From: Mycobacterium sp.
GTDB lineage: Bacteria; Actinomycetota; Actinomycetes; Mycobacteriales; Mycobacteriaceae
Reading direction: 5' to 3'
DNA: 64,000 bases
NCBI GenBank assembly: GCA_003987775.1
Contig: RXJD01000014.1
Span: 18,800 to 82,799, forward strand
The notes under the pieces are model-generated. The model saw only the letters and a program-made list of their open reading frames with translations, did no database searches and was not told the origin of the DNA. Both the position numbers and the translations under genes were made by a program. Shown here piece by piece: positions 6,121-35,039 of this stretch. Numbering within the stretch: position 1 is the stretch's first letter; every line of letters begins with the position of its first letter.

Positions 6121-9100
6121 CTACCGCTGCAGCACCCCGTCGAGGCCGTTAATGCCGGACGGCCCAGGCGGCGTACCGGTCCCGCCATTTCCTCCGTTGC
6201 CGCCGGTGCCTAGGACAATGGCGTTGCCGCCAAAGCCGCCTTTGCCGCCGGGCACCGCCCCGATGCCATTGCCGCCCGCGCCTCCGTTCCCGCCATCACC
6301 GAACAGTCCGGACCGCCCGCCGCCGCCGCCGAAGCCGCTCAAGACGCCGCCGGCGCCGCCGGCGCCCCCGGTCCCGCCGTCGCCGAGGAGGCCGATGGCT
6401 GTGCCACCCGCACCGCCGACTCCGCCAACACCGCCGACTCCGCCGTTCCCGCCGGCACCGCCGTTCCCGTAGATGCCGCTGCCGCCGCCGTCGCCGCCGC
6501 TGCCAGCGACAAAGCCGTAACCGCCGCTTCCGCCGCTTCCGCCGTTGCCGGTGAGCAGGGCGCCGTTACCGCCGCGTCCGCCGTTCGCGCCGAGGCCGGT
6601 GGTGGCACCGCCACCGACCCCGCCAGCCCCGCCGGTGCCATAGAACGTCCCCGCATTGCCACCGTTGCCGCCAGCGGCACCGCCGCCTGCACCAGCGCCG
6701 ACACCGCCTGCCCCGCCGGCCCCGCCGCTGCCGAAGTATGAGTTCGCGGAGCCACCCGCCCCGCCGACCCCGCCAGTGTTAAGTCCAAGGCCGCCCGCTC
6801 CTCCAGCCCCGCCGGTACCGGACAGGGCGGCGCCATCACCGCCGATTCCTCCTGCCCCGCCGACGGTCTGGCCTGCGCCGCCGCTGCCGCCGGCACCACC
6901 GGTGCCGGAGAACGAGCCGGCGTTACCGCCGTGGCCGCCGGCACCTCCGGCGGTGCCGGCGGGTGCGCTGCCACCTGCCCCGCCGGCGCCGCCGTTACCG
7001 GACAACAGACCGGCGTTGCCGCCGGCTCCGCCGGCTCCGCCGGCTCCGGATCCGCCGAGGGCGCCGACGCCGCCGGTCCCGCCGTTGCCGGAAATAAGGC
7101 TGGCCCCGCCGTTCCCGCCGGCACCGCCGGTGCCAAGGCTCAGTCCTCCGGTGCCGCCGTGCCCGCCGTGGGCCAAGAGCGCGCTACCGCCGTTGCCGCT
7201 GGCTCCACCTGTGCCGCCACCAACTCCGCCGCTCCCGCCGGCGCCGCCGGCGCTGAATAGCCCGCCGGCCCCGCCCTGGCCGCCGGCGCCACCTAGACCG
7301 GCCCCGGTACCGCCGTCGCCGCCGAACCCAGCCGTGCCGGAGAACAGTCCGGCGGATCCGCCCCTGCCCCCAGCCCCACCGTCAACGCCGATCGCCCCGG
7401 AACCTCCGGCTCCGCCGTTGCCCATCAAGATTCCGCCGTCTCCGCCCGCGGCACCGGTTCCCGGTGCCCCGTTGGCGCCATTACCGATCAGTGGGCGTCC
7501 GAGCAGTGCCTGGGTGGGTGCGTTGATGACATCGAGCAGAGCTTTATTCGAGGTGGCGATCCCGGCGGCGCCGTTGGCGCCAGTAGCGCCGGCCGGGCTG
7601 CCCAGCCCGGCATTGCCTCCGTTGCCGCCCAACCCGATGAGTTGTGCGTCGCCGCCCCGGCCACCGTTACCTCCGGCAAAGGGGCCACCTTCGCCACCAG
7701 CGCCGGCGTTGCCGCCATTGCCGATCAACGCGGCCTTGCCGCCGGCCCCGCCGGTGCCACCCCCGCCGCTCCCGGCCAGACCGCCGTTGCCGCCGGTGCC
7801 GCCGTCACCGAACAGGCCAACGGCGTTGCCGCCGGCGCCCCCGGCGCCGCTGACTGCGCCGCCGCTATCGCCGTTTCCGCCGGCTCCGCCGGAGCCGGCA
7901 AGGCCGCCGCTGTTGCCGCCGCGGCCGCCCGCCCCACCGCTCGTATCGCCAATGCCGCCGTGTCCACCATCCCCGCCGGTGCCGAACAGGGTTGCCGCAT
8001 TGCCGCCGCTGCCGCCATTGCCGCCGGTACCGGTGCCGCCGACTCCGCCGGCACCGCCAATCCCACCGTCGCCCTGCAGCGTGCCGCCGTTGCCGCCGGC
8101 GCCGCCCGCTCCGCCGTTGACTTGGCCGAAGGCTCCTGCCCCCCCGGCTCCGCCGGTGCCGAACAGTGCGCCGGCCTTCCCGCCGAGTCCGCCCGCCCCG
8201 CCGACGCCGAAGCTGGTGCCACCGGCGCCACCGGTCCCGCCGGTGCCGGAGAGCATGGCGGCGTTGCCACCGGCGCCACCGGCGCCACCGGCGGCTCCGG
8301 CGATCCCACCGGCGCCACCGGCGCCACCGGCGCCATGGAACAAGCCGGCGTTGCCGCCCGCGCCACCGGCGCCGCCGGTAGTGCCGGGCGCATTGGCGGC
8401 GGCGCCACCGGCGCCGCCAGCGCCGCCGTCGCCATAGAACGCGCCGGCATTGCCGCCCTGCCCGCCCGCGCCAGCAGTCGCCTGCCCGCCACCGCCGAGG
8501 CCGCCCGCGCCACCGTTGCCGACGAACATGCTCGTCCCGCCGATACCGCCCTTTCCACCGATGCCGCCAGGGGTTAAGTTGCTCCCTCCTTCGCCGCCTG
8601 CTCCGCCGTCGCCAAACAGGCCGACGCCGCCGGCGCCACCGGCCCCGCCGGTGGTGCCCACGCCGCCGGCGCCGCCAGTTCCGCCGACGCTGAATAGCCC
8701 AGCGGCCCCGCCTTGACCGCCGGCACCGCCAACCCCGGTTGCTCCGTGGCCGCCCGCACCGCCGCTGCCGGGCGTGCCGAACAGCAATCCTGCGGCACCG
8801 CCGCGGCCTCCGGCCCCGCCCGTGGCGCCACTAGCACCCGACCCGCCTGCACCACCGTTGCCGATCAAGATCCCGCCGTCGCCGCCGTTCGCGCCGGTGC
8901 CCGCGGCGCCGTTGGCGCCGTTGCCGATCAGCGGTCGGCCCAGCAACGCCTGGGTAGGTGCGTTGACCACGCTGAGCAGACTCTGCGAAGCGGCCTCGGC
9001 ACTTGCATATCCGTTGGCGCTCGACTGCAAGGTCGCCACGAATTGGGCGTGAAACGCTGCGGCTTGGGCATTGACTGTCTGGAAAGACTGACCGTGTGTG

Positions 9101-21943: not shown

Positions 21944-22279
21944 TCAGGTGGTGGTGACGTACTGCGGGCAGTAGGCGCTGGCGGCGTCGACGGCGAAGGT
22001 GTGGGCGCCGCTGCTGCTCAGGCCGGTCCGCTGGGCCACTCCGCTGATGACCTGCTTGCTGGACTGCCCGGCGTCGAGGGCGCTGCAGACGGCGTGCGCC
22101 TCACTGATCGCTCGCGAGCTGCTGGGCGGGGTGATCCCGTCAGCCTTGATCTGCGCGATGAAGGCGTCGTCGACCGTGCTTGCGCCAGCGGTGCCGGCCA
22201 GGCCGAGGGCGGCCAGTCCGAGCGTGGCGGCGGTCAGAGCGGTGCCGGCCAGGGAAGCGGTGAAACGACGAGTGAACAT
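21944..22279 (-). CDS. Secreted DUF732 protein (Rv1291c orthologue)
   Basis: A 111-residue DUF732 protein: signal peptide [15 protein letters not shown]... cleaved after AGAS or thereabouts, then [33 protein letters not shown] and the conserved end [14 protein letters not shown]. Two cysteines likely form the family disulfide. The start ATG at 22279 has CGGAGA seven bases upstream; an in-frame ATG at 22333 is rejected because it would destroy the signal peptide. This gene ties the mosaic region to the conserved M. tuberculosis order. Four 11-bp-phased hexamers lie 57-95 bases upstream. Confidence 0.9.
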
Positions 22280-22335
22280 TGCTATCTCCGTGCTACTGAG
22301 GGTGGTGGTGAACGCTGGTTTGCGTTGAACCAAGC

Positions 22336-22374
22336 TTCTTGCGCACGGCTTGTGAAGTTCTCAATAGATTCTTG
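22336..22374 (-). promoter_or_regulatory. Four hexamers at 11-bp period upstream of the DUF732 gene
   Basis: On the plus strand TTCTTG (22336), GGCTTG (22347), TTCTCA (22358) and TTCTTG (22369) are spaced exactly 11 bases. In the gene's direction this reads CAAGAA-N5-TGAGAA-N5-CAAGCC-N5-CAAGAA. Helical phasing of direct repeats is how OmpR/PhoB-type regulators bind. The same array precedes three other minus-strand genes in the window. Confidence 0.55.
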
Positions 22375-22382
22375 ATGCTGGC

Positions 22383-23165
22383 CTAGAGAGCGTGCGCCGT
22401 GAGCCAGCGCCGCATTCTCTCGGCCACCGCCTGCCACCCGGGCTCCAGCATCACGTCATGGGCCAGGTCCGGAAATATTTCCGCCTCGGTTCCGTACGTT
22501 GTTGCAATAGAACGGGTTTCGCGTGTTGTGACGATGGCGTCATGCTCGGCGCCGAGCACCAGCAACGGCACCCGCTTCACCCGTTCGGTGTCGACCAGGT
22601 CGAGGGCGAGCATGTCGAGGAATGCGCGGTAGGACTCGTCCTGGAGTCGCCGCTGATAGGCGACGACGTCCGCCTCGGGCATCGCGGGGGAAAAGAACAG
22701 CTCTCTGGCCAGGGCGGGTGTGGTCACCAATGGTCCCAGCCGCCTCTGGGCGTTGACCTTGGTGAAGGTAACGGGGTGGCGGCGGGCGATGTGCCCGGTC
22801 ACCCGCAGCACGCCTGTGGGCCGGATCGAGGCCAGCAGGATGGCCCCGGCGGCGGCGTGCCGGGTCAGGTAGTGCTGCACCACGAAGCCGCCCATCGAAT
22901 GCCCGATCAGCACCGGGGCCCTCGGCAGAGACTCCGCTGCCGAGGCGACGTCGGCGACGTAGTCCCGGATCCGGGCCCCCCGCAGGGCGCCGGAACTTCC
23001 GCCATGGCCGCGCAGACTCGGGGCCACCACGCGGTATCCCTGGCCGGCGAAGTAGTCGAGGAAGTGTTCGTCCCAGCACCACGCCGCATGCCAGGCGCCG
23101 TGAACGAACAGCAGCGGCACGGGATGCTCGTCGGTGGGGTCACCCTTGTCGATGACGTCGAGCAT
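22383..23165 (-). CDS. Alpha/beta hydrolase
   Basis: A 260-residue alpha/beta hydrolase: oxyanion region LLFVHGAWHAAWCWDEHF, nucleophile elbow LIGHSMGG (Ser90), acid in LGAEHDAIV and His in DLAHDVML. It lacks a signal peptide. The start is ATG 23165, seven bases after the M15B peptidase stop, so the two genes form an operon. The frame stays open upstream inside the peptidase gene but has no homology there. Substrate unknown, probably an ester or lipid. Confidence 0.85.
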   Translation of the reverse strand: MLDVIDKGDPTDEHPVPLLFVHGAWHAAWCWDEHFLDYFAGQGYRVVAPSLRGHGGSSGALRGARIRDYVADVASAAESLPRAPVLIGHSMGGFVVQHYLTRHAAAGAILLASIRPTGVLRVTGHIARRHPVTFTKVNAQRRLGPLVTTPALARELFFSPAMPEADVVAYQRRLQDESYRAFLDMLALDLVDTERVKRVPLLVLGAEHDAIVTTRETRSIATTYGTEAEIFPDLAHDVMLEPGWQAVAERMRRWLTAHAL

Positions 23166-23172
23166 GCGGTTG

Positions 23173-23703
23173 TCAGCCGGCTGCGTTGGGCCGCAACGGC
23201 GGGCAGGTGCCGCCGTAGTCGGAGGCCAACTCGAAATGCCAGATCTCGTTGGCGTAGATCTGGCACAGCCCGTATTCCGAGCCGTTGCGGATGAGCCAGG
23301 TGTCGGCGACGGTGGGCCCGACGTCCACGGCGTGGCCGATGACGTGTTTGGAGGTCTCGGGGGAGGCGACGTATTCGCTGGCGATGGCGGCGCTGCCGTA
23401 GCGGGCGACGGCGTCATTGAACAGCTGCTGCTGGAACTCCGGCGAGCGCCAACCAGACGTGAGGCCCAGCGTGATGCCGTCGGCCTTGGCGCCGCGCGCG
23501 GCCTGCTGGATCGCCTGCAGCAGCGCCGGCGTGAGCCGGTTGACCGCCGGGTCGGCCATGTCGAAGGTGCTGAGTTCCTGACCGTCGGGCACCCATCCGC
23601 CCGCGGTGTCGTCGCCGCCGGGCGTGGCCGTGGCCGGCGCCGACGGTGCGACGGCGGCGAGCATCACACCCGCAGCCGCCGACAGAAGCCATTTCCGCAT
23701 CAT
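23173..23703 (-). CDS. Secreted M15B (VanY-type) D,D-carboxypeptidase-like protein
   Basis: A 176-residue exported peptidase. A signal peptide covers residues 1-26 (MMRKWLLSAAAGVMLAAV, cleavage near ATA). TSGWRSPEFQQQLFNDAV carries the conserved Arg; zinc ligands are in SKHVIGHAVD (His120, Asp127) and EIWHFE (catalytic Glu153, His156). This is the VanY/M15B pattern; such enzymes remove the terminal D-Ala from peptidoglycan stem peptides outside the membrane. It starts ATGATG at 23703/23700. It is the first gene of an operon with the alpha/beta hydrolase. Confidence 0.85.
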   Translation of the reverse strand: MMRKWLLSAAAGVMLAAVAPSAPATATPGGDDTAGGWVPDGQELSTFDMADPAVNRLTPALLQAIQQAARGAKADGITLGLTSGWRSPEFQQQLFNDAVARYGSAAIASEYVASPETSKHVIGHAVDVGPTVADTWLIRNGSEYGLCQIYANEIWHFELASDYGGTCPPLRPNAAG

Positions 23704-23754
23704 CGCCTTGTACCTTGGCGATTCCAGCTACACGCGTCAAGCTGGGCCGCTCTC

Positions 23755-24435
23755 TCACGCGGCCAGCACCGTCGAGACCAGCGGCTTCAGCGTCTCGAAC
23801 AACGGCTGGCGGTCGCGCAGGTAGAAGTGGCCGCCACGCAGGATCTGCACCGAGAAGTCCGCGGTGGTGCGCGAGCGCCACTCGCGCAGGTCCGATTCGC
23901 TGACCAGTGGGTCTTCGCTGCCGCCGAACACGTGGATCGGGCAGGGCAGCCCCGCGGTGTCCTCCTCCCGGTCGGTCGCGCACAGCTTCAGGTCGTGCCG
24001 GGTGGTGCTGACGGCCCGCTCGTGCAGCGTGGGCCAGCGGGTCAACCCGGTGGGCCAGCCGCCCAGGTCGGAGAACAACGTCACCAGTTGCTCGTCGTCG
24101 AGTCCGTCCACCAGATGCAGCGGCGGCGGGAGGTGGGGAGGGGCGTAGGCGGACAGAAACACCGCGCGGGGCAGCGTGAGGCCCGCCGCCGCCCGCACCG
24201 ACGCCAGCCGGTAGGCGAGCAGCGCGCCGAAGCTGTGGCCGAAGAACATGTGCGGCTCGTCGAGGTAGGGGCGCAGCTGCTCGTTGACCTCGTCGACCAG
24301 ATCGCGCATCGTGGCGAACCGCTCGCGATTGGCGATCTCGACGGGAATCACCTCGACGGCCGGCGCGAGGGCCTTCTGCCAGGCTTTGAATGTCAGGCTG
24401 CCGCCGCCGGCGTGGTGGAAACAGAACATCCTCAT
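23755..24435 (-). CDS. Free-standing type II thioesterase (TesA/GrsT family)
   Basis: A 226-residue thioesterase II of the kind that edits PKS/NRPS carrier proteins: MRMFCFHHAGGGSLTFKAWQ opening, nucleophile GHSFGA (Ser68), acid in FGGSEDPLV and catalytic His in RGGHFYL. The start is ATG 24435 behind AGAAGGCGA; a longer frame from 24471 adds 12 non-conserved residues. No polyketide or peptide synthase gene is in the window, so the partner is elsewhere or the substrate is different. A three-copy 11-bp-phased repeat lies 60-87 bases upstream. Confidence 0.85.
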   Translation of the reverse strand: MRMFCFHHAGGGSLTFKAWQKALAPAVEVIPVEIANRERFATMRDLVDEVNEQLRPYLDEPHMFFGHSFGALLAYRLASVRAAAGLTLPRAVFLSAYAPPHLPPPLHLVDGLDDEQLVTLFSDLGGWPTGLTRWPTLHERAVSTTRHDLKLCATDREEDTAGLPCPIHVFGGSEDPLVSESDLREWRSRTTADFSVQILRGGHFYLRDRQPLFETLKPLVSTVLAA

Positions 24436-24494
24436 GGTCGTCGCCTTCTTCTCGTGGCTGGTGAAGCTCACGATCGGGGACGGACCTCAACGGA

Positions 24495-24522
24495 TCCTTG
24501 GCGGATTCTTGCGGGAATCTTG
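24495..24522 (-). promoter_or_regulatory. Three hexamers at 11-bp period upstream of the thioesterase gene
   Basis: TCCTTG (24495), TTCTTG (24506) and ATCTTG (24517) are separated by exactly 11 bases. In gene direction the consensus is CAAGAA/CAAGAT/CAAGGA. Distance to the ATG is 60-87 bases, nearly the same as for the DUF732 array. Confidence 0.55.
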
Positions 24523-24663
24523 CGCGTTACCGGATGACTCGATAGCGGAGCCGGGCGACGCCGGTGGCCTCGAGCACGCGCACGAGTTCGAGGCTGGGGA
24601 CGCCCGCCGGCAGGCCGCTTTCGATCGGCTTACCCCCAAGCAGACCCGCTCCGCGGGTGAAAC

Positions 24664-25017
24664 TTACCGGGACAGTGGGCTGTAGAAGACCAGACCGTTG
24701 CCCTTGTTGTCGTACACCACCGCGCGGCGCTCGTGCGCGTCGTCATAGGGCGCCCGCACGATTCCGCCGCCGCTGGCCTCGATGGCCCTGGCCGCCGCGT
24801 CAACGTCCGAGGTCTTGATGCCGACGACGACCTGCCCGGGGATGGGGTGGTCCACCGCCGTGGCGAGTGCCAGCGTGATCGATCCGCCGTCGAGGGCCGC
24901 GAAATGGTCTCCGTCGCGGAACTTGACCGCCATTCCCAGGTTTTCGGAATAGAAGCGGATCGATTCGTCCAGATCGTCCGTCGACAACACGATCATCCGT
25001 ACTTCCTGTGTGCTCAT
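24664..25017 (-). CDS. VOC-family protein
   Basis: A 117-residue VOC protein: VRMIVLSTDDLDESIRFYSENLGMAVKFRDGDHFAALDGG, then QVVVGIKTSDVDAAARAIEASGGGIVRAPYDDAHERRAVVYDNKGNGLVFYSPL. A strong ribosome site GGAGGTG is present upstream of ATG 25017, which fixes the start despite an open frame to 25623. It is divergent from the dehydrogenase gene. The 24436-24663 interval to the thioesterase gene holds the phased repeat and otherwise nothing I recognise. Confidence 0.82.
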   Translation of the reverse strand: MSTQEVRMIVLSTDDLDESIRFYSENLGMAVKFRDGDHFAALDGGSITLALATAVDHPIPGQVVVGIKTSDVDAAARAIEASGGGIVRAPYDDAHERRAVVYDNKGNGLVFYSPLSR

Positions 25018-25089
25018 CGCCACCTCCGGGAATCGTCGTGCCGCTAACGGTAAACCGCACCGCCGGGGGCCGTGGGACAAGATGGCAGG

Positions 25090-26052
25090 GTGCAGAAATC
25101 GCGTGAGGTACTCGGGATCGGCCCGTTCGAGCCGACATTCAGCAGCGAACTGTCCAAACGCTACGAATTCGCCACGCTCCCAGCCGGTCCGGAAAGGGCC
25201 GCGTTCCTCGCCGAGCGCGCCGCTGAGATCCGGGTGCTGGTGACCTCGGGTGGCCCCGGCGCGGACGCCGAGACCATCGCGGCCCTGCCCAATCTGGAAG
25301 CGATCGTCAACAACGGGGCCGGGGTGGACGCGATCGACCTGCAGGCGGCCGAGCGTCGCGGCATCGGCGTCAGCAATACCCCCGACGTGCTCTCCGACAC
25401 CGTCGCCGACACCGCGCTGGGACTGATCCTCATGACGCTGCGCCGTTTCGGCGCCGCGGACCGCTACGTGCGGGCGGGGCGGTGGGCGAGCGACGGGCCG
25501 TTCGGCTACGCGCGCGACGTGAGCGGCCTTCAAGTCGGGATCCTGGGCCTGGGGCGCATCGGGTCGGCGATCGCGACCCGGCTGCGCGGATTCGACTGTG
25601 CCATCGCCTATCACAACCGCCACCGCATCGACGGCTCGTCATACCGGTATGCGGAATCGGCCGTGGAGCTGGCCGAGTCGGTCGACGTGTTGGTCGTCGC
25701 CACCACCGGTGACGGTGGGAATCATCACCTGGTTGACCGGGCCGTCCTACAGGCGTTGGGTCCGGACGGCTATCTGATCAACATCGCCCGGGGCAGCGTC
25801 GTGGACCAGGACGTGCTGGTGGAGTTGCTGCGCAGCGGCGGTCTCGCCGGGGCAGGCCTGGACGTCTTCGCCGACGAGCCGCACGTGCCCGCCGCATTGC
25901 GCAGCCTGGACAACGTGGTGCTGTTTCCGCACATCGGCAGTGCGACGGCCCGCACCCGCCGGGCGATGGCGCTGCTGGCGATCCGCAACCTGGACAGCTA
26001 CCTGAGCACCGGTGAGCTGGTGACACCCGTGCTGCGGCCGGTCAGGCGGTGA
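25090..26052 (+). CDS. D-isomer-specific 2-hydroxyacid dehydrogenase
   Basis: A 320-residue NAD(P)-dependent dehydrogenase of the glyoxylate/hydroxypyruvate reductase group. Cofactor loop GLGRIGSAIA lies near 153-162; the catalytic triad is Arg234 (NIARGSVVD), Glu263 (DVFADEP) and His281 (FPHIGSAT). VNNGAGVDAID marks the substrate domain. The GTG at 25090 is preferred; GTG 25072 in frame is possible and neither has a clear ribosome site. Its 3' end overlaps the convergent small membrane protein gene by 11 bases. Physiological substrate unknown. Confidence 0.88.
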   Translation: MQKSREVLGIGPFEPTFSSELSKRYEFATLPAGPERAAFLAERAAEIRVLVTSGGPGADAETIAALPNLEAIVNNGAGVDAIDLQAAERRGIGVSNTPDVLSDTVADTALGLILMTLRRFGAADRYVRAGRWASDGPFGYARDVSGLQVGILGLGRIGSAIATRLRGFDCAIAYHNRHRIDGSSYRYAESAVELAESVDVLVVATTGDGGNHHLVDRAVLQALGPDGYLINIARGSVVDQDVLVELLRSGGLAGAGLDVFADEPHVPAALRSLDNVVLFPHIGSATARTRRAMALLAIRNLDSYLSTGELVTPVLRPVRR

Positions 26053-26548
26053 GCCTGCGCTGCACCTCTCGGGTGACGTCGAGATGCTGCTGGACGGTGG
26101 CGAGGTCGGCTTCCAGGGTGCCGGCGTCGGGCATGGTTGCGGCGGTGGCGTAGCGCGCCACCGCGGCCTCGATCGACTCCACCGTCGCGGTGATGGTCGC
26201 GAGTAATTCGTCGCGGTGGCTGGGTGCAAGCTGGGCGATGGCGACCAGGTGGTCGTCGAGGTCCAGTGCGGTCTGTTCCAGGTCGGCGCGCAACACGATC
26301 GTCGTCCCGGTGTCGATGGCGTTGACGGCGTACAGGGCGGTCATGGCGTCGCGCAGTCTGCGGTGCAGCCGCGCTTCGGGGTCGTGCGAGACCGCCCACG
26401 ATCGGGGAGCGCGGGTGGGCCGGCCCGGGATCAGCTGGTTGGCGTCGGTGATCGCCCGCTGCTGGCGGTGATGGACCACCGCGACAGCCGCCGCCGCAAC
26501 CCCTGCGAGGAGGAACAGAATCAGGATCACCGCTACGACGATTTCCAT
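26042..26548 (-). CDS. Hypothetical single-TM protein in the SPFH/zinc-ribbon operon
   Basis: A 168-residue protein with one N-terminal membrane helix (about residues 3-25, VVAVILILFLLAGVAAAAVAVV) followed by a soluble, mostly helical domain (heptad-like stretches around 65-165). I recognise no family. It starts three bases after the zinc-ribbon gene stop, so it is the third member of that operon and probably works with it at the membrane. The 3' end overlaps the convergent dehydrogenase by 11 bases. Confidence 0.7.
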   Translation of the reverse strand: MEIVVAVILILFLLAGVAAAAVAVVHHRQQRAITDANQLIPGRPTRAPRSWAVSHDPEARLHRRLRDAMTALYAVNAIDTGTTIVLRADLEQTALDLDDHLVAIAQLAPSHRDELLATITATVESIEAAVARYATAATMPDAGTLEADLATVQQHLDVTREVQRRLTA

Positions 26549-26551
26549 CGA

Positions 26552-27991
26552 TTACCTCCGGTGGACGCGGCTGGGCGTTCGGCTCGAATGATGGCCGTGC
26601 GAATGGAAGTACGCCCAGATCGCGATCACCAGGATCACGACCAGGACCGCACAGGTGATGGCAATCGCCAGCTTGACCTTGCTCCACGGCCGATCGCCTG
26701 CCACCTCCCCGGTCAGGCCGTTGATGGCGACCTGGAACGGGCGGTTGCTGTACATAACCGTTAGCAGCCAGATGGGCAGCAGAATGTGCTTGAAGCCCAG
26801 GTAGTTCCAGTTGGTGCGGAGCTGGTGGATCCGCTGATGGTCACCCCCGATGTCGGATCGCACCGTCCGCTCGACGGCCTGCTCCATCTCCTGTTGCGCC
26901 TCGGGCAGCGCCTGTTCGGCATCCTTGTCGTAAGTGCGGCACAGGTGGCCGGCGACGAACTCGGGCGAGTAGGACCGTGCCTGCTCCACCGGCCACGGTT
27001 CGAGCTGCTTGATTCGTTTGCGGTTGAGGTTCTCGCTGTCGTTGGCCAGCACCGGCAGGTCGGCGAACACGTTATTCACTTGTCCGGCAACGCGATACCA
27101 CGACGTGCGGGTCTCGTAGATCGGGTCGCCGTCGCTGTCGGTGCCCACCCGCACCTGATAGTCCTCGCCGCGCTCTCCCTCGTACCAGGTGTCGGTGTTG
27201 GCGTCATAAGTGAAGTAGGCGGTGTACAAGCTGGAGAAGGCGCCGATCTCGCGGTATTTCTTGAAGTCGGTGGGCGCGAACCAGCGCTTGGTGACCCACT
27301 TTTCGATGAGCTGGCGGGCCTGTTTCTCGTCGATGCGGAACGGCACCACCCCGTCCACCGGCAACCGCGCCGGAGCGTTGTGCACATCGTCGCGCTGGAT
27401 CGGTGTCGCGCAGTAGGGACATTTGGTGGACGTCAGGCTCCCGGCGAATTCCGTTGTGCCACCGCAGTTCTGGCACTTGACTTCGCGCATGCCGGAGACG
27501 CTCGGGCCCTCCTGGCCGCGCTGCGACTCGCGCAGGTGGTGCATCGCGCCACGCAATTCCCGCGATCTGACCGGGGTGTTTGGCGCGGTGATGTCGGAGT
27601 AGTTCCCGCAGCTGGGGCAGCGCATCTTCTGGCTGGCGATGTCGAAATTGAGCTGGCCGCCGCAGGACGCGCACGGGTACGTAAGGGTGCGTTCGGTCTG
27701 GTGGAACATCGCCGGGCCGGCCGGGGGACCGGCGAAGGGGCGCACGGGCGGCGGGGCCGGGGCGGGCGCCGGAGCCTGGCGTGGCGGCAGTGGCGGCGGA
27801 CTGGCCTGCGGCCGCGGCAACGGCGGGGGACCGGCCGGACGTGGCGGCAACGGCGGCGGAGCTGCGGGCCGTGGCGGCAGCGGCGGTGGTCCCGCGTTCC
27901 GGGGCGGCAGCGGGGACGGACTGCTCGGGGGGCGAGGCAACGGTGGCGGCTGCGGATGGGGAGGGCGCGGGTCGCCCGGGTCGTAACTCAT
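26552..27991 (-). CDS. Membrane protein with proline-rich N-terminus and two zinc ribbons (YdjG-like)
   Basis: A 479-residue protein. Residues 1-95 are very proline-rich with roughly 10-residue PPPLPPRPAG-type repeats. Two CxxC...CxxC zinc ribbons follow: Cys107/110/125/128 and Cys173/176/191/194 (TFIIB-like). The middle is soluble, and hydrophobic helices near the C-terminus (about 409-421 and 440-462) end in a His-rich tail. B. subtilis YdjG, which pairs with SPFH protein YdjI, has a comparable layout. The ATG at 27991 overlaps the SPFH stop (ATGA). The frame continues upstream through the SPFH gene, but this coupled ATG is the logical start. Confidence 0.8.
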   Translation of the reverse strand: MSYDPGDPRPPHPQPPPLPRPPSSPSPLPPRNAGPPPLPPRPAAPPPLPPRPAGPPPLPRPQASPPPLPPRQAPAPAPAPPPVRPFAGPPAGPAMFHQTERTLTYPCASCGGQLNFDIASQKMRCPSCGNYSDITAPNTPVRSRELRGAMHHLRESQRGQEGPSVSGMREVKCQNCGGTTEFAGSLTSTKCPYCATPIQRDDVHNAPARLPVDGVVPFRIDEKQARQLIEKWVTKRWFAPTDFKKYREIGAFSSLYTAYFTYDANTDTWYEGERGEDYQVRVGTDSDGDPIYETRTSWYRVAGQVNNVFADLPVLANDSENLNRKRIKQLEPWPVEQARSYSPEFVAGHLCRTYDKDAEQALPEAQQEMEQAVERTVRSDIGGDHQRIHQLRTNWNYLGFKHILLPIWLLTVMYSNRPFQVAINGLTGEVAGDRPWSKVKLAIAITCAVLVVILVIAIWAYFHSHGHHSSRTPSRVHRR

Positions 27992-29157
27992 TGCTGCGGA
28001 AGCGGAGGCGGCGTGCCGGGCAGCGGGGGCGGGGTGCTGAACAACGACTGCAGGGCCGGCACGCTGGACGCCGGCGCCCAGTTCGCCATGCCCTCGGTCC
28101 ACACCACGGTGTCGCGGGTCAGCTGACCGCTGGCGACGAACGGCCGCAGCGCGCTGACGGGGTAGGGGCCGGCGGGTTGACCACCCTGATCGAAGTGGAA
28201 GAGCTGCTGGGTGGGCAGCGGCGGGGGTGCCCCTTGCATCGGCTGCTGGGTGGCCGCGAACTGCTGTGGTTGGGCCTGCGGCTGAGCGGCATTGGCCATC
28301 TGCGCGCCCAGCGCGACACCGAGCCCGGCCTGGATGGCCGAGCCGGCTGCGCCGCCACCTTCGTTCTGGGCCGCGGCCAGCATCGCGTCCGCCCGGCGGG
28401 CCTGCTCGTAACGGTTGAGGTCGCCGACGTTGTTCAGGAAGCTGCTCTCTTCCAGGCCGCGTGCGACGCCGCGGGTCATCGCCTGCTGGATCTCTTCCGG
28501 CAGCGAGATCGTCATGGTGACGGCGTCGATCCCGAGTCCGAAGGCCTGCACCCGCTGCGCCACGAACTCGCGCAGCTTGTCCGACAACTCCACCTGGCGG
28601 CCCTGCAGGTCGATCGCGCCCAGGCCGCTGCCCATGACCATGTCGTTGAACGCCAGGGCGATGTTGCGGCGGATCAGCTCGGTGATCTGATCCATGTCCA
28701 CCACGCTCTGGGTGCCCAGCACCTGGCGCAGGAAGACGGTGGGGTCGGTCACCCGCACCACCGTGGTGCCGTTGGCCCGCACCTGCACCATCTTGAAGTC
28801 CGGGTCCCGCACTGTCACGGGTTGCGGTGTGCCCCAACGCAAGTCGGGATACGGGCGGGTGTTGACGTAATAGACCTCGGAGCGGAACGGGCTGTTGAAC
28901 CCGTATTTCCATCCCTGCAGCGTGCCCAGAATCGGCATGTTCTCACTGGTGAGGGTGTAGTGGCCGGGGGTGAACTGGTCGGCCAGCTGCCCGCGATAGA
29001 CGAACATCGCCCGCTGGCCCTCCCGGACGATCAGCTGGGCACCGTTCTTGATCTCGTTTTCATACCGCGGAAACCGCCATGCCAACGTGGTGTTCGTGTC
29101 ATCGAGCCATTCGATGATGTCGACGAACTCGCCCCGGATCATGTCGCGCATGCCCAT
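27988..29157 (-). CDS. SPFH-domain (YdjI / virion-core-like) protein with C-terminal GYF_2 domain
   Basis: A 389-residue protein. The N-terminal SPFH region (about 1-250) includes LIVREGQRAMFVYRGQLADQFTPG and RRNIALAFNDMV, typical of the YdjI group; an Ala/Gln-rich linker follows. A GYF_2 domain at about 322-372 (GQPAGPYPVSALRPFVASGQ, TVVWTEGMANW) precedes a tail of PPPLP motifs. The start ATG 29157 lies downstream of a purine-rich GAGGAGGGGA. First gene of a three-gene operon. In Bacillus the YdjF-I set forms a membrane-stress complex; here PspA (YdjF) and YdjH are missing. A CAAGAA phased array lies 119-146 bases upstream. Confidence 0.85.
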   Translation of the reverse strand: MGMRDMIRGEFVDIIEWLDDTNTTLAWRFPRYENEIKNGAQLIVREGQRAMFVYRGQLADQFTPGHYTLTSENMPILGTLQGWKYGFNSPFRSEVYYVNTRPYPDLRWGTPQPVTVRDPDFKMVQVRANGTTVVRVTDPTVFLRQVLGTQSVVDMDQITELIRRNIALAFNDMVMGSGLGAIDLQGRQVELSDKLREFVAQRVQAFGLGIDAVTMTISLPEEIQQAMTRGVARGLEESSFLNNVGDLNRYEQARRADAMLAAAQNEGGGAAGSAIQAGLGVALGAQMANAAQPQAQPQQFAATQQPMQGAPPPLPTQQLFHFDQGGQPAGPYPVSALRPFVASGQLTRDTVVWTEGMANWAPASSVPALQSLFSTPPPLPGTPPPLPQQ

Positions 29158-29275
29158 GGTGTCGGTCCCCTCCTCGGCCTTCGATATCTCGGCGAATCTT
29201 ACGCGGCGACGCGGTTGTTCAGCTGGCGGTTACGGCAAAGCCCTGCTCCGCCGCAGCGGGTGGCCGACGACAACA

Positions 29276-29303
29276 TTCCAGGAGAGTTCTTGGAAAATTC
29301 TTG
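29276..29303 (-). promoter_or_regulatory. Phased hexamers upstream of the SPFH operon
   Basis: TTCCAG (29276), TTCTTG (29287) and TTCTTG (29298) lie at an exact 11-base period; the last two share the spacer GAAAA with the array at 32001. In gene direction the array reads CAAGAA-N5-CAAGAA-N5-CTGGAA, 119-146 bases before the ATG. Confidence 0.55.
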
Positions 29304-29311
29304 GAGCCCGG

Positions 29312-30154
29312 CTAGTGGCTGCGTGCGAGGGTGCGAATGAGGCCGGCGACGCGATGCGGCCGTTCGATCATCACGAGGTGCCCGGCTGGGGCGACGGTGA
29401 CGTGGTCTGCTCCGAGATCTGCAGCGAGCTCGAGCTGCTGGGCGCGCCAGCGCCGGGTGCGCCAACCCGTGTGCGCGGTCGCCACCATGCGTGGCACCGG
29501 TGGCAGCGGATGACGGATCCGCAGGTGGTACAGCTCGGCCGCAAGCTCGTGGTATCCGACATATTCGGTGAACAGCGCGGGCAGAAATGCGGGATCACTT
29601 GCTGCACTGCATATTTGGGCACGCATGGGCGCGTCGAGCCCGCCCGGCCGTCGCCGCTGCGCGAGCGCGAGGCCGACGCCGGCCACCGGTTCGTCGAGGT
29701 GCAGCGTGCGCAGGAGCGCCGCACCGGCGTGGGCGGCGGTGAGTTTGGCCGGTAACGGCAGCGCGGGCCGGCGGCGCTCGGTGGCGATGCTGGAATCGAG
29801 CAACAGCACGGCGCGGGTGCGGTGCGGGTACAGACGCGCGAATGCTTCGGCGTAGAAGCCGCCGACCGAGTGTCCCGCCACGACGGCGCGTTCGGCGCCC
29901 GGTACGGCGTCCAGGACGGCCGCGATCCTGTCCGCCTCAGCCTGCACCGTCGGCAAAGGGGGCGGGGTCACCGGAGTGCCGGGCCGGTCGAAGCGCAGCA
30001 CGGTGTGGTCGCCGGCCAGGTCCGCCGCCGTGTCGCTCCAGTGCAGCGCGCGCCCGCCCAGGCCGCTGCACAACACCACCACCGGACCGCTGTCGCCGTC
30101 GACGAGGATGCGTACCCGGTAGCCGCCGACCTCGACATCGGCGCCGTGGCTCAC
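29312..30154 (-). CDS. Alpha/beta hydrolase
   Basis: A 280-residue alpha/beta hydrolase. VVVLCSGLGGRALHW forms the oxyanion turn, VVAGHSVGGFY holds the nucleophile, and VAPAGHLVMIERP holds the catalytic His. The start GTG at 30154 overlaps the stop of the upstream membrane gene (GTGA), so it is translated in coupling with it. A longer frame reaching 30817 is the shadow of that membrane gene. Substrate unknown. Confidence 0.82.
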   Translation of the reverse strand: MSHGADVEVGGYRVRILVDGDSGPVVVLCSGLGGRALHWSDTAADLAGDHTVLRFDRPGTPVTPPPLPTVQAEADRIAAVLDAVPGAERAVVAGHSVGGFYAEAFARLYPHRTRAVLLLDSSIATERRRPALPLPAKLTAAHAGAALLRTLHLDEPVAGVGLALAQRRRPGGLDAPMRAQICSAASDPAFLPALFTEYVGYHELAAELYHLRIRHPLPPVPRMVATAHTGWRTRRWRAQQLELAADLGADHVTVAPAGHLVMIERPHRVAGLIRTLARSH

Positions 30155-30882
30155 GGGCCGGTTGCGCTGGGTACCCGGGCGGTCCGCAGGGCGGCGTAGA
30201 TCAGCCAGGAGGCGAACGCCACCAGCTCGGCCCGCTGCGCGACGCCCACCATGCCCACGACGTCCGTGTGGTCGATGAGGATCGCCACGCCGGTCCAGAT
30301 CGCGGTGCCGACCAACGCCGTCAAGGTGAGCAGTCCGGTGCGGCAGATCGGGGCGGAGGCGCCTTCCCGGTAGTCGGCGATCGCAAATGCCAACAGCGAC
30401 GCGATCGCGGCGGCCAGCGCCATCCCGCTGCTGAGCCAGTGCAGCTGGTGGCTCAGCGGCACGGTCCCCGCGGCCTCGCGGGCCGCGCACGCGGCATCCG
30501 AACTCGGCGCGCACACCAGCGTCCACACCGTGCTGTCCAGGCCCGTCGCCACAGCGAAGACCCCGAGTGCGCCCCAGCCTGCCTTGCTCCACCGGCTGCC
30601 CCGGACGCCGATCAGCGCAGCGACGGTCGCCACGACCAGGACGACGGCACAGGCCCGGTCGCAGATGCGAAACCACTCGCCATACGGTTGATCGGCCGCG
30701 GAGAGTTCGCTGATGTACATGTCCGGATCCGGCAGCAGACTGCGGGTGAGGTAGTTCTCGAGGATCCAGTTCGAATACAGCACGGCGCCGGCCACCGAAC
30801 CGGCGGAGGCGATCCATCGCAGCGCGGACAACGACTCGTGACTGATCTCCGCCACCAGGGCGGAGCGTGGCCGCACTGCCAT
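30151..30882 (-). CDS. DUF998-like multi-pass membrane protein
   Basis: A 243-residue integral membrane protein with about six hydrophobic helices (near residues 22-38, 77-93, 104-120, 150-170, 183-205, 215-235) and the layout of DUF998 family proteins: ILENYLTRSLLPDPDMYISELSA in the first extracytoplasmic loop, later HQLHWLSSGMALA. The start is taken as ATG 30882 (MAVRPRS); further in-frame Met codons exist upstream to 30909. Coupled by GTGA to the alpha/beta hydrolase downstream. Function unknown. Confidence 0.7.
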   Translation of the reverse strand: MAVRPRSALVAEISHESLSALRWIASAGSVAGAVLYSNWILENYLTRSLLPDPDMYISELSAADQPYGEWFRICDRACAVVLVVATVAALIGVRGSRWSKAGWGALGVFAVATGLDSTVWTLVCAPSSDAACAAREAAGTVPLSHQLHWLSSGMALAAAIASLLAFAIADYREGASAPICRTGLLTLTALVGTAIWTGVAILIDHTDVVGMVGVAQRAELVAFASWLIYAALRTARVPSATGP

Positions 30883-30947
30883 ACCGCCATCATGCCGTGG
30901 TCGGCACATTGCGGCGGGTCTTCGGGAACCTGGCGCGCCGTGTTTCG

Positions 30948-31934
30948 CTATGCCAGGTCGGATTCCGCGTCGACGGCGGCGTACTGACGGACACCGGTCT
31001 GCAGTGCCTTGCGCATCAGCTCCGGCTGGTGCTCGTAGGGAGCGGTCGAGTCGATGAAGCGCTGGACGACCTCCACGAAACGGTCCGGGTGGTCACCGTG
31101 CGGCATGTGGCCGGACTCCTCGAAGATTTCCAGACGCGAGCCGGGGATCTGTTCGTGGGCCACCCGGGCGTGGTTGGCCGGGATGATCAGGTCGTCCTCG
31201 CCCCAGATGATCTGGACGGGAAGGTCGTGCATCAGGTAGGTGCGGTCGAGCATGGTGACGTACTGGCCGCGGGTGTCGACGACTGCGCGCAGGGTGCGGG
31301 CGAACGCTTCGACGGCGCCCGGTTTGCGCAACCCGCCCACCAGGCGCGGCAGGCTGGCGACGTCACGGGTCAGCCGGGTGGAGCCGGCGACGTGACCGAC
31401 CGCGCGGCTGACCAGGCCCAGAGCGGGGACCGCGCCGGGCAGTCGCAGCGCCGAGAGCATCTCGGCGCCCATGGGCATCGCCGCGAAGCGCAGGGCCGCG
31501 CTCACCTCCGTGGTGACGCCGCCGGCGCTCACCAGCACCACCCGCTCGACGAATTGCGGGTACTGGTAAGCGAACTGGGCCGCGAGGCCGCCGCCGAGAG
31601 AGTGCCCGACGAGGGTGACCCGGTCGATTTCGAGGGCCGTCAGCAGGTCGCGTAGGCCGTTGGCGAACGCGGCCAGCGAGTAGTCGGCGCGCGGCTTGTC
31701 CGATTCGCCGTGGCCCAGCATGTCGGGCGCGATGACGGTGAATCGCTGGGCAAGCTTGGCGTGCACCGGTTCCCACGTCGTCGAGCTGTCGCCGACGCCG
31801 TGCAGCAGCACGACGACCGGGCCGGAACCGGCGATACGGAAGGCGCGCCGGTGGCCGTGGATGGTGCGGAACTGCAGTGCCGGCGCGGTGACATCCCGTA
31901 CGGGCCGTAGGTGGCGGCGTGAACGGTTGGTCAT
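30948..31934 (-). CDS. Alpha/beta hydrolase, Rv2715-like
   Basis: A 328-residue alpha/beta hydrolase very similar to what I recall of Rv2715: NLRPVRDV-type N-terminus (here HLRPVRDVTAPALQFRT), VVLLHGVGDSSTTWEPVHAKLAQRF, nucleophile LVGHSLGGGLAAQFAYQYPQ, acid WGEDDLIIP and His in SGHMPHGDHP. The 30-residue Arg-rich N-terminal leader is shared by that group. The start is ATG 31934. The phased array at 32001-32017 is 67-83 bases upstream. Substrate unknown, probably a lipid ester. Confidence 0.85.
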   Translation of the reverse strand: MTNRSRRHLRPVRDVTAPALQFRTIHGHRRAFRIAGSGPVVVLLHGVGDSSTTWEPVHAKLAQRFTVIAPDMLGHGESDKPRADYSLAAFANGLRDLLTALEIDRVTLVGHSLGGGLAAQFAYQYPQFVERVVLVSAGGVTTEVSAALRFAAMPMGAEMLSALRLPGAVPALGLVSRAVGHVAGSTRLTRDVASLPRLVGGLRKPGAVEAFARTLRAVVDTRGQYVTMLDRTYLMHDLPVQIIWGEDDLIIPANHARVAHEQIPGSRLEIFEESGHMPHGDHPDRFVEVVQRFIDSTAPYEHQPELMRKALQTGVRQYAAVDAESDLA

Positions 31935-32000
31935 TGTCTCGTCCCCTTTGCGTCGTCTCCACCGCCGAGGCGGGGTATTGCGGAGAAGCTTGCCGGGGAG

Positions 32001-32017
32001 CTCTTGGAAAATTCTTG
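32001..32017 (-). promoter_or_regulatory. Phased hexamer pair upstream of the Rv2715-like hydrolase
   Basis: CTCTTG (32001-32006), spacer GAAAA, TTCTTG (32012-32017): the same period and spacer as near 29287. In gene direction CAAGAA-TTTTC-CAAGAG. A degenerate third copy (TTCGGG) would fall at 32023. Confidence 0.55.
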
Positions 32018-32048
32018 AAGCTTTCGGGGCGAGGGGCTGCCTGGCTTT

Positions 32049-32109
32049 GTCGAGCCTGCAGATTTGCAGAGCTCTACTCGCACTTTCGCTGCAGGTTTAC
32101 AGGCTCGAC
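32049..32109. repeat. Imperfect 21-bp inverted repeat in the 31.9-32.2 kb gap
   Basis: Arms 32049-32069 and 32089-32109 share GTCGAGCCTG at the outer end and TGCAG at the inner end, with 4 mismatches in 21 and a 19-base loop. The 31935-32232 interval holds only this palindrome and the phased hexamers. Confidence 0.6.
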
Positions 32110-32232
32110 GGCGGGCGGCGGCTTATAGGGGGCCTACGCGTATAAGAACCCAGTCACGCTGTGCTGAGCGCCTTGCGGCCCAGCCTGACCCGTGCGAAGT
32201 GACGATGCGGCTGGGCCAGCCTGCGAGGGACG

Positions 32233-34005: not shown

Positions 34006-34305
34006 TCAGGGGCAATAAGCCGATTCCGCCGCGCTTACGGCCGCGGTGGCGTCCTGGTAGGTAGCGTTGCTGAATTTCGTCTGGACGACTTGGGCCAGTT
34101 GGTCGGGGGTGTAACCCTGGCTGCGGTCAGCGCAAATAGCGTGTCCGAGCGCGATCATCGTGTCTTTGTCACCGGAGAATCCCAGCTTGCCCATCTGGGC
34201 CAGATAGGCGTCATCGTCCGCGAGGGCGATGCCGCTACTGAGGGAAAAAGCCATGGCGACAACGGCAGGGATACACAGCAGGCGCAGTCCGCGAAGCGAA
34301 ATCAC
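34006..34305 (-). CDS. Secreted DUF732 protein (second copy)
   Basis: A 99-residue DUF732 protein with signal peptide (hydrophobic LLCIPAVVAMAFSLSSGIALA, cleaved before DDD), then AYLAQMGKLGFSGDKDTMIALGHAICADRSQGYTPDQLAQVV and the end AAVSAAESAYCP. Two mature cysteines. The start is GTG 34305 behind AAGGAGGG, a clear ribosome site. It has a shorter tail than the copy at 21944. Function unknown. Confidence 0.85.
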   Translation of the reverse strand: MISLRGLRLLCIPAVVAMAFSLSSGIALADDDAYLAQMGKLGFSGDKDTMIALGHAICADRSQGYTPDQLAQVVQTKFSNATYQDATAAVSAAESAYCP

Positions 34306-34514
34306 GCTCGCCCTCCTTCTGTCGGGGGTGTTTGCTACCAGCAAAGTATGGGCCTCTCGGGGCCGGAGCGCGAGGGGAAGAAAAAAGTGCTCAGCCGGCG
34401 CAGCATCGAGTCGTCTGGGGATTAGGCCCAGCGCTGCCAACCCGCATCGATCCGACTGCGGCCTGAGTGGTGGCCGTTCGGATGATGGCTGCGAATCCTG
34501 TTGTGCGGCAGAGC

Positions 34515-35039
34515 TTATGCGGAGTTCGGGTCGGCGACCTGGACATCCGGCGAAATGTCGCCCACGCGCGTCGCGACGAACGGGATGACTATCGGGGCGC
34601 ACGGCGCCTCCGACTGCGTACTTACTCCCACGAAGGTTCCGTCCGGTTTCACCTGGAATGAGAGTGTCTCGGTGCCCTGCTTCATGGAGTTGTTGCAGGT
34701 GAACATCTTCCATCTGGTCGCTAGCCATTGGCCTCGGTTCTCGCGGAACACCAGCGCACCCTCCTCGGGCGGTTGCGGCCACGTGGGGCTGATCGAGGTG
34801 TCCCATGCCGTCGCGACGCACCCGGCGGGTGGGCACGCGGAGCGCATCGCGATCACGGTGGAATACGCGCCGGTCGGCTTCGGTACGCCGTCGATCGTCT
34901 GCTTACTGCCGTCGAAATCGAACCGGTACATGCCGTCAGCCAACGCCGAAGCCGAGGCAACGAGAGGGGTGGCCAGGGCGGCCGCCGGTCCCAGAATGGT
35001 CGCGGAAATAGCCGCTAGAAGAATGCGACAGATACTCAT
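34515..35039 (-). CDS. Secreted Rv2253-like protein (second copy)
   Basis: A 174-residue exported protein with signal peptide (MSICRILLAAISATILGPAA.., cleavage after ASALA or nearby). The mature part shares the layout of the protein at 21384: GMYRFDFDGSKQT, CPPAGCVAT cysteine pair, a Trp/Arg-rich middle (NRGQWLATRWKMFTC) and a late cysteine in SEAPCAP. ATG at 35039 behind GAAGG. The 34306-34514 gap shows nothing else. Confidence 0.75.
   Translation of the reverse strand: MSICRILLAAISATILGPAAALATPLVASASALADGMYRFDFDGSKQTIDGVPKPTGAYSTVIAMRSACPPAGCVATAWDTSISPTWPQPPEEGALVFRENRGQWLATRWKMFTCNNSMKQGTETLSFQVKPDGTFVGVSTQSEAPCAPIVIPFVATRVGDISPDVQVADPNSA

Follow-up and report, generated by a model that had tools for sequence, protein, structure and literature searches.

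The 64,000-nucleotide stretch of a Mycobacterium sp. genome analysed here (the window, C99:18800-82799 of genome G000, 7.29 Mb) carries arrays of CAAGAA-like hexamers upstream of four genes or operons, and raises the question of which protein reads them and of how far the system extends beyond this locus. Re-examination of the sequence verified the four arrays at the places given by the original prediction, on the minus strand and with an 11-bp period, as well as their distances of 57-146 bases to the starts of genes encoding a DUF732 protein, a thioesterase, an SPFH protein and a hydrolase, and the spacer (TTTTC/GAAAA) common to two of them. On the basis of the repeats, their phase, the position of the -10, their conservation, and their linkage to and co-occurrence with embR, all directly computed, these arrays are very probably operator-promoters of activators of the EmbR family, for which binding, activation and control by a kinase are predicted from sequence.

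All four sites fit an element stricter than the hexamer arrays initially described, i.e. three or four 11-bp repeats CAAGRATYC followed by a -10 box GAnnCT, with a gap of 8 bp between the last hexamer CAAGRA and this box. This element emerged from the alignment of 37 non-redundant triples out of 39, none of them located inside the window. Two bases beyond the search pattern are conserved, an A at +37 (34/37) and a T at +41 (33/37) in a numbering that starts from the first C, and both fall within a GAcnCT sequence. The mycobacterial -10 consensus is TAnnnT, and the conserved A and T match those of this consensus, which defines a predicted -10. A matrix including the three repeats and the -10 was derived from these 37 arrays, and both bases are in register at all four sites of the window (boxes in Table 1). 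Near EmbR-like genes, the strict pattern gives 18 matches in 1.39 Mb versus 0 in the control. When the distance between the last CAAG and the -10 pattern is varied, the true spacing gives these 18 matches, a spacing two bases shorter gives 4 and 14 other spacings give 0-1 each, and a scan of triples for different periods finds 7 at period 11, 1 at period 15 and none at periods 8-10, 12-14 or 16.

This arrangement corresponds to that of the promoters controlled by SARPs. According to the accessible text of PMC10936776, SARP promoters carry direct repeats with a spacing of 11 or 22 bp, whose 3' member lies 8 bp from the -10, and the afs box recognized by AfsR overlaps the -35. The arrays display both features, since their period is 11 bp and their 3' repeat lies 8 bp from the predicted -10, and they share with the afs box a poor -10 and a location over the -35. 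However, they read CAAGRATYC and include three or four units, whereas the afs box includes two; furthermore, their candidate reader carries an FHA domain whereas AfsR carries NOD-TPR.

A BTAD search of the genome of the window retrieved two proteins, both with a C-terminal FHA domain and both matching the EmbR structure 2FEZ. One of them, encoded on the same contig as the window, matches Mycobacterium tuberculosis EmbR (2FEZ, residues 1-384, E 1.3e-218), and its gene adjoins a PknH-like kinase gene cut by the contig end. The gene of the other (match to 2FEZ, E 9.5e-150) sits between embC and embA. The architecture of the family is found at L069:704-1864 (Trans_reg_C 5.9e-11, BTAD 2.7e-49, FHA 2.3e-17). 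The EmbR-like protein of two Mycobacterium gordonae strains shows 98% identity with that of the organism studied here, which is therefore a near relative of this species.

Among 297 genomes of the genus, 156 carry an EmbR-like gene at E<=1e-70 (EmbR-positive genomes) and 141 do not (EmbR-negative genomes). The strict pattern anchored on the -10 has 671 matches in the former (mean 4.30, control 31) but only 36 in the latter (mean 0.26), which corresponds to background (control 40). At least two strict matches are found in 104 of the 156 EmbR-positive genomes versus 6 of the 141 EmbR-negative ones (Fisher p 2e-32, the kinship of genomes being ignored), and the mean number of matches is 0.26, 2.03, 5.77, 8.92 and 6.40 in genomes harbouring 0, 1, 2, 3 and 4 EmbR copies, respectively (141, 73, 65, 13 and 5 genomes).

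The arrays are also physically linked to embR. The best 80 of 195 EmbR-like loci in named genomes, taken mostly with up to 10 kb on each side, include 55 loci with arrays scoring at least 18, for a total of 103 sites, versus 0 in the reversed sequence. The gene located after the array is DUF732-like at 48 sites, related at 43 sites to L069:2205-2915, which encodes a C39-peptidase-like protein (C39_2, E 9.8e-7), and neither of these at 12 sites. EmbR is followed by the kinase, the array and DUF732, in this order, in L160, L169 and L173, and by the array and then DUF732 in L165; in L163, the array precedes another small gene. Among the matches listed, EmbR and a strict match are separated by 1.7-1.9 kb in G034, G104, G119, G148, G169 and G257, and none lies close to EmbR in G131, G184 and others.

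Several observations weigh against the attribution of the arrays to EmbR. Published gel shifts place EmbR on the embC, embA and embB promoters (accessible part of PMC9239209). No strict match is found in 24 of the 156 EmbR-positive genomes, one of which, G128, harbours three arrays near its EmbR according to the matrix. Conversely, 6 EmbR-negative genomes hold at least two strict matches, as seen above (G008, which has six, is 70% complete), and G012, which has neither a BTAD nor an EmbR-like match, carries one exact triple. Finally, the correlation between EmbR and arrays ignores phylogeny, a point that also favours another reader whose phyletic range EmbR would merely share.

The original prediction favoured such a reader, a two-component response regulator. 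The boxes bound by response regulators of the OmpR/PhoB type consist of tandem repeats with a spacing close to one helical turn. The arrays resemble them in this respect, and the notion of a common operator offering one repeat per helical turn to an OmpR-type DNA-binding fold, a fold class shared by response regulators and the EmbR family, stands as a prediction. However, a response regulator is an improbable reader: the arrays, unlike OmpR/PhoB-type boxes, keep the SARP-specific distance of 8 bp to a fixed -10, they lie beside embR in the majority of the loci examined, and their number follows the presence of an EmbR-like SARP-FHA gene, the pooled EmbR-negative genomes being at background. 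Judged from the array geometry and from the distribution of the EmbR family, the reader is most likely not a response regulator. Slightly less probable still is a different reader, whether some other embR-linked DNA-binding protein or a sigma factor of the alternative type that would recognize CAAG and the -10. The -10 is indeed unusual and strictly spaced, as expected from this proposal, but a sigma-factor element does not consist of three or four repeats spaced every 11 bp, and the genes most frequently called next to embR encode kinases, secreted proteins and transporters. As for chance or base composition, it is rejected with near certainty for the arrays as a class, given the triples, the arrays of EmbR loci, the synthetic windows and the footprints kept at orthologous promoters.

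Indeed, CAAGAA-N5-CAAGAA with at most two mismatches occurs 12 times in the window for an expected mean of 1.14 (standard deviation 1.00), a number reached by 0 of 100 shuffles. The matrix score exceeds 12 in the window only at the four promoters, lower registers aside. One hundred synthetic windows with the same dinucleotide make-up contain in total 9 hits scoring at least 12 and 4 scoring at least 15, with a maximum of 17.1; therefore, the SPFH site, which falls within this range, is weak if taken alone. In the reversed control (273,512 bases from the window and chosen stretches of the same genome), a single hit exceeds 13, at 17.6. At the scale of the genome, the loose two-repeat pattern with one mismatch gives 19 matches versus 10 in the reversed control, so that such matches are often due to chance; this pattern being too permissive, triples, the -10-anchored pattern and the matrix were used instead. 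Triples CAAGNA-N5-CAAGNA-N5-CAAG with at most one mismatch are found 9 times in the genome versus 0 in its reversed control. In a set of 61 genomes (37 of the window's genus and 24 of other genera), 42 exact triples are present in 12 genomes, all belonging to the window's genus (control 2), and none is present in the 24 genomes of other genera. The motif thus exceeds its control in the genome of the window, in these 61 genomes and in the EmbR-positive genomes, as the original prediction had anticipated, but its idea of a local regulon is abandoned, the arrays being scattered across genome and genus.

The DNA contacts of AfsR were taken from the available text of PMC10936776. Residues corresponding to its backbone contacts W74, P79, S91, R94 and K95 are kept or nearly so in 81 EmbR-like proteins; Q48 is replaced by K and R87 mostly by H, and the base-reading T88 and R92 are replaced by S (76/81) and N (80/81), respectively. 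This pattern, with backbone contacts kept and base-reading residues changed, is consistent with a SARP fold that reads a different repeat.

In the mechanism that we propose, an EmbR-family activator, made of an OmpR-type DNA-binding domain, a BTAD and an FHA domain, would bind as SARP-like protomers lying side by side on the 11-bp CAAGRATYC repeats and covering the -35 region. The bound protomers would recruit RNA polymerase and hold it at a promoter whose poor -10 (GAnnCT) lies at a fixed distance. Via its FHA domain, the activator is probably tuned by a PknH-type Ser/Thr kinase, whose gene is often a neighbour of embR. The candidate targets include genes of the embR neighbourhood that encode secreted proteins of the DUF732 and C39-peptidase-like kinds, as well as dispersed genes. 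In the window, the mechanism would apply to the genes of the DUF732 protein, the thioesterase and the hydrolase, and also to the SPFH unit, but for the latter within the M. gordonae group. The array does join a secreted protein, lipid-active hydrolases and an SPFH unit, as initially noted. PknH phosphorylates EmbR and thereby raises DNA binding in vitro, according to the accessible text of the review PMC4601284; EmbR phosphorylation is condition-specific and EmbR did not bind the hspX promoter by surface plasmon resonance, according to that of PMC9239209. No published EmbR binding motif was found in the literature searched, outside which most subscription papers lie, and the available part of PMC10312376 merely cites the 2022 EmbR paper.

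The system resembles EmbR/PknH of M. tuberculosis by its 2FEZ-matching protein and the adjoining PknH-like kinase. However, the genes that the arrays indicate are of the DUF732, C39-like and lipid kinds, to the exclusion of embCAB, the target usually assigned to EmbR. No array is found at embC, embA or embB in five genomes (best score 3.5), so that embCAB is rejected as a target via this operator, and an EmbR-like SARP-FHA gene lies inside the emb cluster, between embC and embA, in three of these five genomes (G000, G006 and G131). The absence of arrays at embCAB agrees with the deletion of EmbR reported in 2022, which left embCAB unchanged and reduced 90 of the 116 altered genes, in a paper whose accessible part calls the in vivo regulon of EmbR undefined (PMC9239209). 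It disagrees with earlier work, cited in the available portions of PMC9239209, PMC7785237 and PMC3709824, in which EmbR was reported to bind at embCAB and PknH to affect it; EmbR could bind at embCAB without such an array. On balance, we lean towards the view that the name EmbR misleads, the family acting via CAAGRATYC arrays as a kinase-tuned switch for a SARP regulon that spans the genus and comprises secreted DUF732 and C39-like proteins as well as lipid and secondary-metabolism genes, with embCAB not a direct target through this operator. EmbR has long been studied as a mycobacterial Ser/Thr-kinase substrate; the repeat code with its fixed -10 provides concrete candidate promoters, would predict EmbR targets in any mycobacterial genome, and would tie DUF732 proteins, whose function is unknown, to a kinase-linked activator.

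The 10.2-kb region was searched in 22 chosen genomes, all EmbR-positive, and 18 stretches from 16 of them were compared. The DUF732 array is kept at 14/14 orthologous promoters, the window included (70-100% identity, scores 23.5-39.0), and the thioesterase array at 12/12, the -10 being off the matrix register in two rows (L249 and L254). The repeats and -10 of the hydrolase promoter are kept at 11/11 orthologous promoters, the lowest score being 8.9 (L241), a count that leaves out a paralogue that is 25% identical (L256). In the alignments of the thioesterase and hydrolase promoters, the array and the -10 stand out as conserved islands. The SPFH array is kept in 5 of 10 orthologues, all in the M. 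gordonae group. Hence, the conservation expected by the original prediction is observed for three promoters and restricted to this group for the fourth. The score upstream of seven neighbouring genes, from which 26552 was left out, is at most 10.9; these genes are a weak control because many may have no promoter of their own. The value of 10.9 was obtained for 22383, a hydrolase-fold gene, in genomes resembling M. asiaticum, and apparently reflects the DUF732 array seen from its opposite side.

Beyond the window, profile R1 detects 23 places in the genome at E<=5, of which 15 are below 0.1. It recovers all the window sites except that of DUF732, which lies outside its hits despite its matrix score (Table 1). 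Genes downstream in the direction of the arrays include those of GTP cyclohydrolase I, whose array is also present in G131 (score 54.6), a peptidase M48 and a TauD-type dioxygenase. A simple gene caller finds no gene in the array direction at L262, L263, L264, L274 and L276, and a sixth place (L282) has no matrix hit at a score of at least 0. Four-repeat arrays with a degenerate third unit occur in L001, L002 and L010, near 1501; two of them precede an MbtH-non-ribosomal peptide synthetase and a Ser/Thr kinase encoded after an MMPL gene, and no gene is found by the simple gene caller in the direction of the L010 array. They may represent a sub-type or belong to another reader. In L068, two arrays on opposite strands are located back to back, 11 bp or so apart, around 7731-7775 (G000 C104:55691-55784), which suggests a divergent promoter pair.

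Table 1. Arrays, predicted -10 boxes and downstream genes in the window, and emb clusters with an EmbR-like gene between embC and embA.
Feature	Position	Strand	Sequence or evidence
DUF732 operator array	22342..22374	-	CAAGAATCTAT TGAGAACTTCA CAAGCCGTGCG; matrix score 23.5
DUF732 predicted -10 box	22333..22338	-	GAAGCT
DUF732 secreted protein gene, 111 amino acids	21944..22279	-	PF05305 E 1.7e-18 (longer open reading frame 21944-22333); ATG at 22279
Thioesterase operator array, four 11-bp units	24479..24522	-	CAAGATTCCCG CAAGAATCCGC CAAGGATCCGT TGAGGTCCGTC; matrix score 29.0
Thioesterase predicted -10 box	24470..24475	-	GATCGT
Type II thioesterase gene	23755..24435	-	PF00975 E 2.3e-34 (on open reading frame 23755-24471); start 24435
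SPFH operator array	29282..29314	-	Degenerate unit, then CAAGAATTTTC CAAGAACTCTC; matrix score 15.9, lowest of the four
SPFH predicted -10 box	29273..29278	-	GAATGT
SPFH/Band-7 gene with GYF_2 domain	27988..29157	-	PF13421 E 1.3e-87; start 29157
Hydrolase operator array	31996..32028	-	CCCGAAAGCTT CAAGAATTTTC CAAGAGCTCCC; matrix score 31.7
Hydrolase predicted -10 box	31987..31992	-	CAAGCT
Alpha/beta hydrolase gene	30948..31934	-	PF00561 E 3.7e-38; start 31934
emb cluster	L299:3709-12940 (G000 C112); also L300, L301		

The boundaries of two arrays were revised. Four hexamers had been counted from 22336 before the DUF732 gene; the array is real but the fourth copy overlaps, and is in register with, the predicted -10 box. 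The window encodes another DUF732-domain protein (E 9.9e-15) at 34006-34836, with no array scoring at least 8 nearby in the matrix scan. The array assigned to 32001, before the hydrolase gene, is likewise present, but it is not limited to two copies, as it begins one degenerate repeat earlier, at 32028. Directly upstream of it, an inverted repeat with imperfect arms, GTCGAGCCTGCAG...CTGCAGGTTTACAGGCTCGAC, can be seen by eye at about 32048-32110.

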